A stretch of 64,000 nucleotides of DNA from Flavobacterium urocaniciphilum. Its GTDB lineage: Bacteria > Bacteroidota > Bacteroidia > Flavobacteriales > Flavobacteriaceae. Numbering within the stretch: position 1 is the stretch's first letter; every line of letters begins with the position of its first letter. The notes below the pieces were generated by a model, which was given only the letters and a program-made list of their open reading frames with translations, did not search any database and was not told the origin of the DNA. Positions 5,928 through 13,355 of this stretch are shown here, piece by piece. Location: contig NZ_FOEI01000006.1 of assembly GCF_900110615.1 (NCBI RefSeq), positions 62,001-126,000 on the forward strand. Reading direction: 5' to 3'. A program made the position numbers and the translations under genes.

Positions 5928-5959
5928 TTGGAAAATTAAAAAAATAAGATAAATCTTTG
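5928..5959 (+). promoter_or_regulatory. probable promoter of the small transcript
   Basis: TTG at 5928-5930, a 21-base spacer, then AATCTTTG at 5952-5959, differing from TAnnTTTG in the first base. Transcription would begin roughly 30 bases before the small ORF. Confidence 0.55.
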
Positions 5960-5995
5960 TGTCAGAAAATTAATAACCTTTTAAACGAAGAAAAA

Positions 5996-6079
5996 ATGTT
6001 TGTATTTAAATCATTACCTCAAAGCTATGCATCAGTTGGAACTGATGAGGCTCTTCTTCGTGGCTATACGCAATCATAG
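5996..6079 (+). CDS. possible 27-residue peptide or small RNA gene
   Basis: An ATG ORF of 27 codons (it begins MFVFKSLPQSYASVG and ends LLRGYTQS) sits alone between its own promoter and a strong terminator. The bases before the ATG are A-rich (ACGAAGAAAAA), as common for translated Flavobacteriaceae genes. The ORF contains the palindrome CATCAGTT-GG-AACTGATG (6030-6047), and the sequence GCTAT(G/A)C recurs on both sides of it, so the unit may act as a structured RNA instead. I recognise no family. Peptide coding, leader RNA and regulatory RNA are all possible. Confidence 0.4.
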   Translation: MFVFKSLPQSYASVGTDEALLRGYTQS

Positions 6080-6096
6080 ATAAAACAAAATATATG

Positions 6097-6133
6097 AAAA
6101 AGCCCGAAGACAATTAGTTTCGGGCTTTTTTTT
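6097..6133 (+). terminator. rho-independent terminator of the small transcript
   Basis: Stem AAGCCCGAA / TTCGGGCTT with a ~10-base loop followed by a run of T. It closes the small transcription unit 18 bases after the 27-codon ORF, well before rtcB. Confidence 0.9.
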
Positions 6134-6249
6134 GTCAATTCTAGATCCTTCAAAAAATTTCCCGAAACGTTTCAAAGTTATGCAATGTGCTAAAACAATG
6201 CCTTTTTGGTTGGTTTAGTTCAATGTTATGAATCATTTTTAAAATAATC

Positions 6250-7641
6250 ATGGGAAATAAACTATCTGGGAAAGACTTAATCAAATTAGGCTTCCCAAAA
6301 AATAATGCTATAAACATTGCCTTAGGGCAAATTAATAGATATCGAAAAAGAGAAAAAAAGGAAAGAATATTAAACGAAGCCAAACAAGTATTATTAAATC
6401 CGGAGCAATACAAAGGCGATGGGACTTGGGGAAAAGTGGTGGAAGGTTTAATCAATCCCGTTCAAGTGAAATTCAACGAATTGAAAACCACTCGAGCACC
6501 TTTTTCCATCTTTGGAGAAAACGAAATTGATGATCAAGCAAAGTTTCAATTGTATGATGCTCTAAAATTGCCAATTTCAGTTAAAGGGGCTTTAATGCCC
6601 GATGCACATTCTGGTTATGGATTGCCAATTGGCGGGGTTTTAGCCACAGATAATGCGGTAATTCCATATGGAGTAGGAGTAGATATCGGTTGTAGAATGA
6701 GCTTGTCGATTTTCGATTTGCCAGCGTCTTTTTTCAAAGGGAAAGACCATCAATTGCAAGCGATTTTGAAAGACAATACCAAATTCGGAATGACTGAAAC
6801 GCATAAAGTAAAAGCGGATCATGAGGTTTTTTATCGAGACGAATTTAAAACGATTCCATTGGTAAAACAATTGTTAGACAAAGCATACAAGCAATTAGGT
6901 TCATCTGGAGGAGGCAATCATTTTGTAGAATTCGGAATTGTGAAATTAGACAATCCGTTGCCAGAATGGAAATTAGAAGCTAAAGAATACGTTGCGGTTT
7001 TATCACACAGCGGTTCACGTGGATTGGGTGCAAATATTGCAAAACATTACACGTATTTAGCTAGTAAACAATGTCCGTTACCGAAGAATGTTCAGCATTT
7101 AGCATGGCTCGATTTGAACACACATGACGGTCAAGAATATTGGATGGCTATGAATTTAGCTGGTGATTATGCAAAGGCTTGTCACGAAGATATTCATAGA
7201 AGAATTGCTAAAGCGTTAGGAAAACGAATTGTGGTTACGATTGAAAATCATCACAATTTTGCTTGGAAAGAACAAGTAGATGGTAAAGAATGTATTGTGC
7301 ACCGAAAAGGAGCTACGCCAGCGGCAAAAGGACAATTGGGAATTATTCCAGGTTCAATGACGGCGCCAGGATTTATCGTTATGGGTAAAGGAAACGAAGA
7401 CAGTTTACAATCGGCTTCTCATGGAGCTGGACGTTTGTTTTCGAGAGCGAAATGCAAAGCTACTTTTACTCAAAGTCAGATTAAAAAAGTCTTGTCAGAT
7501 AACGAGGTAACGTTAATTGGAGGAAATATTGATGAAGCACCAATGGCGTATAAAAACATTCATACGGTAATGAATTTGCAAACAGAATTAGTAGACGTGT
7601 TGGGAACTTTCACGCCGAAAATTGTTAGAATGGACCGATAG
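6250..7641 (+). CDS. rtcB: RNA-splicing ligase RtcB (RtcB2-type, paired with PrfH)
   Basis: The 463-residue protein is a GTP- and Mn-dependent RNA ligase that joins 2',3'-cyclic phosphate or 3'-phosphate ends to 5'-OH ends. Core motifs are present: [21 protein letters not shown] with the metal ligand C148, [41 protein letters not shown] and SASHGAGR, where H391 corresponds to the guanylylated histidine. The N-terminus has an extra basic segment (to about residue 60) not found in short RtcB proteins. The gene directly precedes prfH with a single base between stop and ATG, which identifies the RtcB-PrfH repair module rather than a tRNA-splicing role. No archease or RtcR gene is seen. Confidence 0.95.
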
Positions 7642-7642
7642 T

Positions 7643-8335
7643 ATGGAGAAGATCATTCAAATTACCTCAGGAAGAGGACCTGCAGAATGTACATGGGTTG
7701 TGGCTCAAGTATTGAAAAAAGTGTTGCAAGAAGTAGAATCTTTTGGTTTAGAAGCGACTGTCTTGCAACGCGAAGCAGGTTCGGAAAATGGAACGGTAGC
7801 ATCAGCTATGGTTCAAATTAAAGGAAAAGATGCTAAAGAGTTTACGAATTCATGGGTTGGAACCATTCAATGGATTGGAAAAAGTACTTTTAGGAAATTT
7901 CACAAACGCAGTAATTGGTTTATTGGAATTTTTGAAGTAGATGCAATAAGTACTAAAGCATTTTCTGAAAAAGACATTCAATATCAAGCGATGCGAAGTT
8001 CGGGAGCTGGCGGACAACATGTTAATAAAGTGAGTTCGGCAATTCGGGCGACACATTTGCCAACGGGAATTAGTGTGGTGAGTATGGATTCGCGTTCGCA
8101 ACATCAGAATAAGAAATTGGCAACTGAACGCTTGTTAGTGAAGCTAAACGAAGCGCAATTAGATCTTTTAAAGCAACAATTTCAAAGTCAGTGGATGAAT
8201 CAAATGGCAGTGGAACGTGGCAATCCGATTCGAACTTTTGAAGGTTCCGATTTTAAGAAACTCAAAATAGAAAAGAAATTTAAACAGGAGCGACAGCGCC
8301 TTAAAAACGAATTAAATAAATTTAAAAACACATAG
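7643..8335 (+). CDS. prfH: peptide chain release factor H
   Basis: The 230-residue protein is a short class I release-factor homologue with a GGQ loop ([12 protein letters not shown]123-G124-Q125) for hydrolysing peptidyl-tRNA. It lacks the N-terminal domain of RF1/RF2, as PrfH does, and begins with the typical [16 protein letters not shown]. The C-terminus is Lys/Arg-rich. I chose the ATG at 7643, one base after the rtcB stop; an upstream TTG at 7622 would overlap rtcB and add seven unrelated residues. In the known module, PrfH releases peptides from ribosomes with a broken 16S decoding centre so that RtcB can reseal the rRNA. The two genes are clearly co-translated. Confidence 0.93.
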
Positions 8336-8533: not shown

Positions 8534-9082
8534 ATGAAAAACATAGATAAATACTTGTTTCAAGCGTTGGATAACTATCCGTATTCGTTGGAAGAAACAA
8601 CGGAAGCGTTAGATTATGCCTTGTCTTATGACGCGAAAAATGTCACTGCTTTGTGTTTATATGCGCGTATTGAAGCAGAGCAATTGTATAATTATGATGC
8701 TGCGAAAAATTATTTCGAAGAAGCATTAGCTATTAATATGGAAGCTGTTGCAGTGTATCCACATTATATAGATACCTTACTTTTGAATGAAGATTACGAC
8801 GAAGCATCTAAATTAATCGATTTTGCATTAACGGTTAAAGGAATCAACAAAATGGCAATTTTACTAAAGAAAGTTCATTTGTTAGAACGTCAACTAAAAC
8901 TTAAAGAAGCTTTAAAACTGATTAAAGAAGTAAAACTAGTTGTGTATAACAATGATACTTACGATTTAGAAGAAACACAAAAACGTTTAGAAGCCAAAAA
9001 AGAATTGTTGAAACCGAAAAAAAAATCGAAGGATAAGAAATCCGAGAAAAAAGACAAGAAGTCAAAAAAGAAAAATGATTAA
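8534..9082 (+). CDS. TPR-like protein with lysine-rich tail
   Basis: The 182-residue cytoplasmic protein begins with helical repeats that look like two to three tetratricopeptide units (for example NVTALCLYARIEAEQLYNYD and YDAAKNYFEEALAINMEAVA between residues 38 and 75). The last ~30 residues are almost entirely Lys, Ser, Asp and Glu (KPKKKSKDKKSEKKDKK), probably disordered and able to bind nucleic acid or acidic partners. No catalytic motif is visible. It sits 38 bases before the exonuclease gene on the same strand, so the two may be co-transcribed. The function is unknown; TPR is a fold call only. Confidence 0.75.
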   Translation: MKNIDKYLFQALDNYPYSLEETTEALDYALSYDAKNVTALCLYARIEAEQLYNYDAAKNYFEEALAINMEAVAVYPHYIDTLLLNEDYDEASKLIDFALTVKGINKMAILLKKVHLLERQLKLKEALKLIKEVKLVVYNNDTYDLEETQKRLEAKKELLKPKKKSKDKKSEKKDKKSKKKND

Positions 9083-13204: not shown

Positions 13205-13295
13205 GTATTTTGTTTTGAAAACTTATATTGTTTTATAGCCCTGATAGCAGCGGTATCATGTTATTGCGATGGAAATGAGAAGTTCATTATTAGAA

Positions 13296-13317
13296 TGCTT
13301 CGTTCCTCGCAATGACA
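13296..13317. repeat. dispersed repeat, copy 1 (TGCTTCGTTCCTCGCAATGA)
   Basis: A 22-base sequence identical at 41087-41108. Its complement (TCATTGCGAGGAACGAAGCA) is a well-known intergenic repeat in many bacteria. Here a degenerate inverted partner starts at 13261 (TTATTGCGATGG), so the pair could form a hairpin in the gap before mutA. Confidence 0.85.
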
Positions 13318-13355
13318 TATTTAGCGAATAGCAGGAAGATAGTTGATTTGAAATA

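Follow-up and report, generated by a model that had tools for sequence, protein, structure and literature searches.

A predicted ribosome-mediated transcription attenuator upstream of rtcB-prfH in Flavobacterium and related genera

In the leader-peptide attenuators of trp and his operons, four RNA segments compete for partners and the position of the ribosome selects which helices form. The macrolide leaders of erm and msr genes have a conserved arrest motif, such as +x+. The Bacillus subtilis vmlR leader is reported to respond to ribosome stalling on its ORF with transcriptional read-through; initiation on the ORF is needed, and defects in ribosome assembly also induce (PMC9226507). Escherichia coli toiL, a multipurpose uORF, is described as sensing ribosome inhibitors of several classes, and tetracycline stalls ribosomes at its start codon (PMC12121999). 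The RNA repair operon rsr-yrlBA-rtcBA is reported to be activated by RtcR, a CARF-domain activator that binds tRNA fragments (PMC7790460). In the PrfH-associated system, PrfH releases fMet from fMet-tRNA on colicin-E3-cleaved 70S ribosomes (PMC9223846, citing other work), RtcB2 reseals 16S rRNA, and E. coli ATCC25922 owes protection against colicin E3 to the operon (PMC9223846). Transcriptome reports describe clues to leader-peptide attenuation at amino acid operons in F. psychrophilum (PMC9723704) and small ORFs in long 5' UTRs in B. thetaiotaomicron (PMC7366714); the word rtcB is absent from the main texts of both. In the mostly open-access literature that we searched on PrfH/RtcB, leader peptides, and flavobacterial attenuation, no title or abstract opening dealt with such regulation of rtcB-prfH, and there the control of PrfH production, and of RtcB with it, is apparently undescribed. 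Here we present a conserved leader that is probably a ribosome-mediated transcription attenuator controlling rtcB-prfH.

Anatomy and distribution of the leader unit

The leader lies in a 64,000-nucleotide stretch of Flavobacterium urocaniciphilum DNA that was analysed as a whole (the window). Its parts are listed in Table 1.

Table 1. Features of the leader unit and of the genes behind it, in window positions
Feature	Position	Strand	Remarks
Leader promoter	5928..5959	+	TTG 5928-5930, N21, AATCTTTG 5952-5959
Segment 1 (ACGAAGAA)	5985..5992	+	Inside ribosome footprint of leader start codon; partner is segment 2
Leader ORF, 27 codons, MFVFKSLPQSYASVGTDEALLRGYTQS	5996..6079	+	ATG 5996 to TAG 6079
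Inner hairpin, CATCAGTT-GG-AACTGATG	6030..6047	+	The palindrome of the earlier note; sits in loop of helix 1:2
Segment 2 (TTCTTCGTGGCT)	6054..6065	+	6054-6061 with segment 1; 6056-6065 (T6061 bulged) with segment 3
Segment 3 (AAGCCCGAAG)	6100..6109	+	Terminator 5' arm; also antiterminator partner of segment 2
Segment 4 (TTTCGGGCTT)	6118..6127	+	Terminator 3' arm
T run, eight T	6126-6133	+	Part of terminator
Segment 5 (TTTCCCGAAAC)	6158..6168	+	Complementary to segment 4
rtcB (RNA ligase)	6250..7641	+	First gene of operon behind leader; PF01139, 278.5 bits
prfH (release factor H)	7643..8335	+	TIGR03072, 236 bits (cut-off, 166.65)
TPR-like protein gene	8534..9082	+	3' of prfH; Pfam TPR matches sub-threshold only

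An earlier note, made from this DNA alone, had described a TTG-N21-box promoter, the 27-codon ORF, an 8-bp palindrome, and a terminator, and all of these are present where it placed them. The flavobacterial -7 consensus is reported to be TAnnTTTG (PMC9723704); the window's box deviates from it in the first base and fits only the relaxed form [TA]AnnTTTG. In Rfam 15, no family reached its gathering score over 5928-6133, and a permissive scan gave only sub-gathering matches. (Elsewhere in the window, Flavo-1 RNA [RF01705] was found at 13233-13342 with 46.9 bits.) A scan of the window for consensus terminators did not list the terminator at 6100-6127, the stem of which can extend into the T run. 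The unit folds at -39.2 kcal/mol (z -3.2) with its terminator, and z is -1.3 when the terminator stretch is left out, so single-sequence folding alone is weak evidence.

Comparative evidence was obtained at several distances. The DNA search for conservation outside this strain, which the earlier note had proposed, covered 60 relatives and found seven additional copies in the genus (E values of 4.8e-78 to 1.0e-16), all of which retain the ATG, the frame, and the TAG and have 27 or 28 codons. In this the earlier note, which had seen a small transcription unit with a possible peptide, is supported: the transcription unit is real and conserved, with a small ORF that looks translated. Counting the window's own genome, rtcB starts 247 to 284 nt past the leader ATG in seven of the eight genomes of the genus, and the gene preceding the leader varies. 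The eighth (L040) has a 258-aa ORF between leader and rtcB.

RtcB loci were taken as the best 80 of at least 587 GTDB stretches encoding RtcB relatives. We searched 88 sources (these 80 loci, the seven genus neighbours, and the window) for the pattern of segments, and 71 carry the arrangement; a 72nd, L094, was removed because its segment 2 was misregistered. A covariance model was trained on 41 sequences (40 loci and the window). An ATG is part of it and the ORFs used for training were open; the model has no frame rule. At 61 bits or more, it matches upstream of rtcB in the window and in 71 of these best 80 loci (31 outside the training set and 40 inside it), among them L103, which is under the pattern score yet was found by the model; the next match has 46.9 bits. 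Because there are both copies in seven further genus genomes and these model matches, we do not consider the unit a chance arrangement, and the tie to rtcB-prfH that the earlier note had thought possible is borne out. The conservation of rtcB as the downstream gene was missed by that note; judged by synteny, the rtcB-prfH operon is the conserved gene set behind the leader.

Among the 63 model-positive loci that were also pattern-found, the distance from unit to rtcB is at most 550 nt in 36 and 0.8 to 1.8 kb in 27, and the longer gaps contain other genes, in some cases the 258-aa ORF. This ORF encodes a basic protein without a Pfam match and occurs between leader and rtcB in L040, L046, L048, L052, and others. 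Genera with the unit include Flavobacterium, Myroides, Algoriella, Aquimarina, Polaribacter, Tenacibaculum, Chryseobacterium, Epilithonimonas, Kaistella, and Sphingobacterium. Nine of the 80 loci have no 61-bit match (L082, L092, L095, L098 to L102, and L115). Nothing was seen in L082, and L092 offers only 142 nt of upstream sequence. L095 reaches 32.9 bits and by eye holds a unit with a long insertion 5' of the terminator, and in L115 prfH lies upstream of rtcB. L098 to L102 encode divergent RtcB (L098, 45.4 bits), and L098 to L101 were inspected by eye. In this divergent group (L098 1038-1204, L101 1110-1272) there is a different leader ORF (e.g., MRFIKSTYQLHDAGENILALAPGFIAQFSFK) with a terminator, ~2 kb before rtcB.

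The unit is also linked to prfH. Searching with the window's PrfH by tblastn, we found a PrfH-like ORF in 69 of the 71 loci that bear the leader; L093 and L114 gave none, and the ORF of L105, counted among the 69, is a fragment that lies at the contig end. In an evenly drawn sample of 296 genomes of the class, the unit (E < 1e-11) occurs in 9 of 25 prfH genomes and in none of the 271 others. In a sample of 249 genomes of the window's family (E <= 1e-8), it occurs in 18 of 19 prfH genomes and in 5 of 230 without prfH, and in all 18 it lies 0.4 to 3.8 kb 5' of prfH on the same strand. In the class sample, the presence of prfH was scored above the TIGR03072 cut-off; G000 and G120 belong to both samples, and stricter filters lose weak matches in both searches. 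Class-search matches with E values of 4e-5 and weaker, among the matches listed, were taken as terminator noise.

The unit was not found in 16 of the 25 class-sample prfH genomes or in the family genome G385, which was inspected for gene order. Fifteen of the 16 have readable upstream sequence, and by eye 12 have other short ORFs with a terminator or hairpin; L173, L174, and L180 gave no clear leader picture. Leader-ORF control may be a wider habit of rtcB-prfH operons.

Two further kinds of leader were distinguished by eye. A second type precedes rtcB-prfH in L177, L178, L179, L182, L185, and L186, with short ORFs (e.g., MFKMQHTYIKLVGRS and MLMKVVKYKNWSGGNYK) and, in or just past the ORF, a stretch resembling GGTCGGG or GATCAG whose possible partner is the 5' arm of a GATCGGG terminator. 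A third type, before rtcB-prfH or a prfH operon in L172, L175, L176, L181, L183, and L184, has ORFs of 14 to 19 codons with the stop codon within or next to a hairpin, such as CTGGAG-TTAGA-CTCCAG in L184. In E. coli K-12 (NC_000913; L192 740-787), an unannotated 15-codon ORF, MTNPLSMTLCRPFQD, with a GGAGG site lies ~180 nt before ykfJ, a pseudogene beside prfH.

The five family genomes that have the unit without prfH are G394, G492, G578, G411, and G372. In G394, G492, and G578, it stands before a TPR-like gene, and a distant RtcB (28 to 29% identical) follows in G394 and G578, with none in the stretch fetched from G492. In G411, it stands before a PcfJ-like gene, rtcB, and TPR. In G372 (L221, unit at 595-741 of the locus, 68.7 bits), the gene that starts ~175 nt behind it encodes a GNAT protein related to AAC(3)-I, which scores 87 bits and is thus below the curated AAC(3)-I cut-off of 200. 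Second copies occur in G481, before a gene that by eye resembles the PcfJ-like one, and in G369, before a TPR gene with a distant RtcB. The position of the unannotated genes behind the leader (TPR-like, PcfJ-like, and 258-aa) suggests that they belong to RNA repair. The TPR-like gene of the window has a cassette copy of its own in L222, L224, L225, and L227 (three genomes without prfH and G369, in which prfH is present), and near some of these gene copies there is a metallophosphatase, an SPFH protein, or a distant RtcB.

Alternative helices in the leader RNA

Segment 1 (CGAAG) ends 2 to 6 nt 5' of the ATG and pairs with segment 2 (CTTCG), which lies 51 to 63 nt past the ATG. Segment 2 together with the next, GGCTT-like bases, with one base bulged, pairs with segment 3, the 5' arm of the terminator, and segment 3 pairs alternatively with segment 4. 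The helices are mutually exclusive: 1:2 corresponds to an anti-antiterminator, 2:3 to an antiterminator, and 3:4 to the terminator. In the window, it is ACGAAGAA 5' of the ATG that pairs with TTCTTCGT at the ORF end, and TTCTTCGT alternatively pairs with the terminator 5' arm; the earlier note had missed both pairings.

The CGAAG and CTTCG cores hardly vary, and the core pairs are therefore uninformative. Outside the cores, each helix has covarying pairs of its own. In helix 1:2, column pair 15:83 (n = 41) is AU in 18 sequences, UG in 10, CG in 8, UA in 4, and other in 1, with 22 of 41 changed on both sides. In helix 2:3, pair 91:145 (n = 41) is GC in 20, AU in 13, and other in 8, with a two-sided change in 13 of 41, and pair 92:144 (n = 41) is CG in 19, UA in 14, UG in 6, and other in 2, with a two-sided change in 14 of 41. 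In helix 3:4, pair 144:174 (n = 41) is GC in 19, AU in 14, GU in 7, and other in 1, and pair 145:173 (n = 41) is CG in 27, UA in 13, and UG in 1, counts that are partly selected for because the pattern search scored 3:4 complementarity.

In these counts, and in the comparisons with slid and shuffled columns that follow, related sequences are taken as independent. For helix 2:3, 94.4% of cells are paired, versus 22 to 62% when slid, and three of five covariation measures beat the shuffles: there are 28 doubly changed cells versus a shuffle mean of 8.8 and a covariation score of 0.179 versus 0.103, and 0 of 500 shuffles reach either value. The number of pairs with a two-sided change is 3 versus 1.7 (reached by 67 of 500 shuffles), and that of further pair types is 7 versus 7.3 (reached by 497 of 500). 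Helices 1:2 and 3:4, taken jointly, are 95.5% paired versus 31 to 56% when slid, with 57 doubly changed cells versus 20.7; none of the 500 shuffles matches them on any of the five measures, an excess that the scoring of 3:4 in the pattern search has in part selected for.

Pair changes were also placed by parsimony on a FastTree tree of RtcB proteins (64 sequences). In helix 1:2, pair 5 changes nine times, always ending paired and once on both sides; pair -1 changes fifteen times, nine ending paired; and pair 6 changes fourteen times, three ending paired. In helix 2:3, pair 6 has eight changes, five ending paired; pair 7 has nine, five of them two-sided and six ending paired; and pair 9 has seven, one ending paired. 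Pairs 3 and 6 of helix 3:4 have eight changes, seven of them two-sided and all ending paired. The RNAalifold consensus fold recovers helices 1:2 and 3:4 unaided. On these alignments, mutually exclusive helices, one of which is a terminator, have evolutionary support.

This covariation bears on a simpler explanation, in which a constitutive terminator is followed by an independent rtcB promoter and the pairing of segments 1, 2, and 3 reflects mere shared CGAAG/CTTCG repeats. CGAAG does occur twice and CTTCG once, with little variation in the core pairs, but the non-core pairs covary in every helix. The distribution of -7 boxes is also relevant. Within 110 nt 3' of the terminator, the relaxed box is found in 6 of 71 units and the strict box in only 1 of 71, and in the window neither form is found between the terminator and rtcB. 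Upstream of the leader ATG, in contrast, the strict box is found in 24 of 71 units (1.9 expected from shuffles) and the relaxed box, 43 to 65 nt 5' of the ATG, in 60 of 71. We consider this explanation highly improbable.

Two further pairings were analysed. The inner hairpin is absent from the RNAalifold consensus fold; its site has a mean z of -1.91 over 61 distinct units, with 28 of 61 at p <= 0.05, versus means of -0.03, -0.08, and +0.43 for control stretches, and it is formed from different sequences in different genera. Such a hairpin is a candidate binding site in a leader that is bound by RtcB, PrfH, or another protein as a form of autoregulation, with the ORF as an accessory. However, the hairpin is kept more as a shape than as a sequence, and the ORF frame, which such a model does not need, is kept open; autoregulation of this kind seems very improbable to us. 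Segment 4:5 pairing is singly below p 0.05 in 31 of 71 units, with a median p of 0.065, which is suggestive only; segment 5 may hold segment 4 once the antiterminator forms.

Predicted translation of the leader ORF and its peptide

The pattern search demands an open ORF, and so we discarded the openness of the 71 pattern-found ORFs (0 of 71 stopped) as evidence. Instead, we used units found by the covariance model: 30 of the 32 counted class and family hits, with the window's own unit and that of G120 left out and with two (L193 and L198) that are identical to training units. From the ATG to segment 2, frame 0 is open in all 30, whereas stops interrupt the other two frames in 23 and 13 units. 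Of the 71 pattern-found units, 70 have a spacing from the ATG to segment 2 that is divisible by three (the exception is L079, with 59), as do 28 of the 30 model-found units (L207 has 59, and L206, which is perhaps misregistered, has 67).

The peptide itself is weakly constrained, with pN/pS values of 0.63 for 20 Flavobacterium ORFs, 0.61 for 15 ORFs of the Chryseobacterium group, and 1.31 for 12 ORFs of a Tenacibaculum-like set. Near the C terminus, 70 of 71 peptides have LR. In L079 and L207, the frame over CTTCG is changed and LR is gone, yet CTTCG is kept and the ORF still passes segment 2; LR thus seems to be a consequence of the RNA pairing. We ruled out peptide conservation as the driver on the basis of pN/pS and of this loss of LR. 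The leader ORF looks like one whose translation, rather than its product, matters.

The peptide data are pertinent to whether the attenuator could answer a specific stall, caused by a drug together with the nascent peptide as in erm leaders, or an aminoacyl-tRNA as in amino acid operons. Besides LR, F is at position 2 in 58 of 71 peptides, and R/K-x-R/K occurs in 16 of 71 (RLR in 13), mostly in the Chryseobacterium group; the unit of G372 stands before an AAC(3)-I-like acetyltransferase gene. On the other hand, R/K-x-R/K is absent from 55 of 71 peptides, so that no conserved arrest motif of the +x+ type was found, and there is no codon run as in amino-acid leaders, the longest single-residue run being 1 to 2 in 69 of 71. 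LR can be lost with CTTCG kept, and a ribosome arrested near LR would sit over segment 2 and so promote termination. A specific stall of this sort is unlikely.

The earlier note had viewed the unit as free-standing and not simply the rtcB leader, that is, as a small RNA or small-peptide gene. Such a gene might act in trans and merely be near rtcB. In its favour, the unit has a promoter of its own and ends in a strong terminator, and the terminated leader RNA (~165 nt) would accumulate; a leader peptide, peTrpL, is reported to act in trans elsewhere (PMC7298713). However, rtcB is kept downstream while the gene before the leader varies, the antiterminator helix covaries, and the constraint on the peptide is weak (pN/pS, 0.6 to 1.3). 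We rejected a free-standing small RNA or peptide gene on the rtcB synteny and the antiterminator, which contradict the earlier view; the terminator is better read as the regulated element, and an action in trans is quite improbable.

Proposed mechanism and comparison with known systems

The attenuator that we favour is built on a promoter, a short ORF that is kept open, three exclusive helices, and a conserved rtcB-prfH behind them. With no ribosome loaded, helix 1:2 would form first and then the terminator. Healthy ribosomes would reach the stop codon and cover segment 2, and the terminator would form again. A ribosome that initiates and stalls within the first four codons or so would cover segment 1 only; segment 2 would then take segment 3, and polymerase would read through into rtcB-prfH. 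Because the ORF has no shared stall motif or codon run, the signal is expected to be a general failure of early elongation, and its natural cause would be decoding-centre damage, the substrate of PrfH/RtcB.

The geometry of the units was modelled with an assumed ribosome footprint of +-15 nt. With the P site on codons 1 to 3, segment 1 is masked in all 71 units; the number falls to 69 for codon 4, 16 for codon 5, and 0 for codon 6. Segment 2 is reached from codon 13 (1 of 71 units) to codon 17 (71 of 71). Only a ribosome at about codons 1 to 4 masks segment 1 and leaves segment 2 free, and the expected signal is therefore a ribosome that has initiated and fails to elongate. In masked folding of pre-terminator transcripts, helix 2:3 has a probability of >0.5 in 71 of 71 units when the start region is masked and in 4 of 71 when the stop region is masked, with 1:2 formed instead in 57. 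Since 2:3 already beats 1:2 in 60 of 71 unmasked pre-terminator RNAs, the start mask adds little at equilibrium. In full-length RNA, helix 3:4 exceeds 0.5 in 64 of 71 units when free, in 58 when start-masked, and in 71 when stop-masked. As the free pre-terminator RNA prefers 2:3 and the full-length RNA prefers the terminator, we infer that the order of transcription must decide, as in classical attenuators.

We tentatively propose, with slightly less than even confidence, that the damaged ribosome itself is the inducer. It would initiate on the leader ORF, become stuck at the start region, and thereby induce both its release by PrfH and its repair by RtcB; copies of the same cassette would have come to stand before further genes found with RtcB and, in one case, before a gene resembling those of aminoglycoside acetyltransferases. 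Under this hypothesis, the inducer and the substrate of the operon would be the same particle. A leader that reads initiation-competent, elongation-dead ribosomes would, if the proposal is true, sense ribosome damage directly and in a way open to test, and would offer a ready-made reporter of attack on the decoding centre by rRNA-cleaving bacteriocins and drugs.

Compared with trp and his attenuators, the proposed leader has the same four segments and the same choice of helices by ribosome position. It differs in having no codon run for a single amino acid and in that segment 1 is upstream of the ORF start, not within the ORF.

An RtcB repair operon turned on by damaged translation machinery, as we propose here, would resemble the RtcR system described in PMC7790460, although a cis leader with a small ORF takes the place of a protein activator. 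As reported for toiL, arrest at a start codon can be a signal; in the account of that system, however, control runs through exposure of the topAI ribosome-binding site and Rho-dependent termination rather than through an intrinsic terminator switch (PMC12121999). The nearest working analogue appears to be the vmlR leader, which is described as having an upstream ORF, an anti-antiterminator, an antiterminator, and an intrinsic terminator (PMC9226507), a likeness of anatomy. That leader belongs to another phylum and controls an antibiotic-resistance ABCF, whereas RtcB (RNA repair) and PrfH (ribosome rescue) are encoded here. Unlike in vmlR, segment 1 is at the start codon, and therefore only initiation or very early stalls should induce the rtcB-prfH leader.
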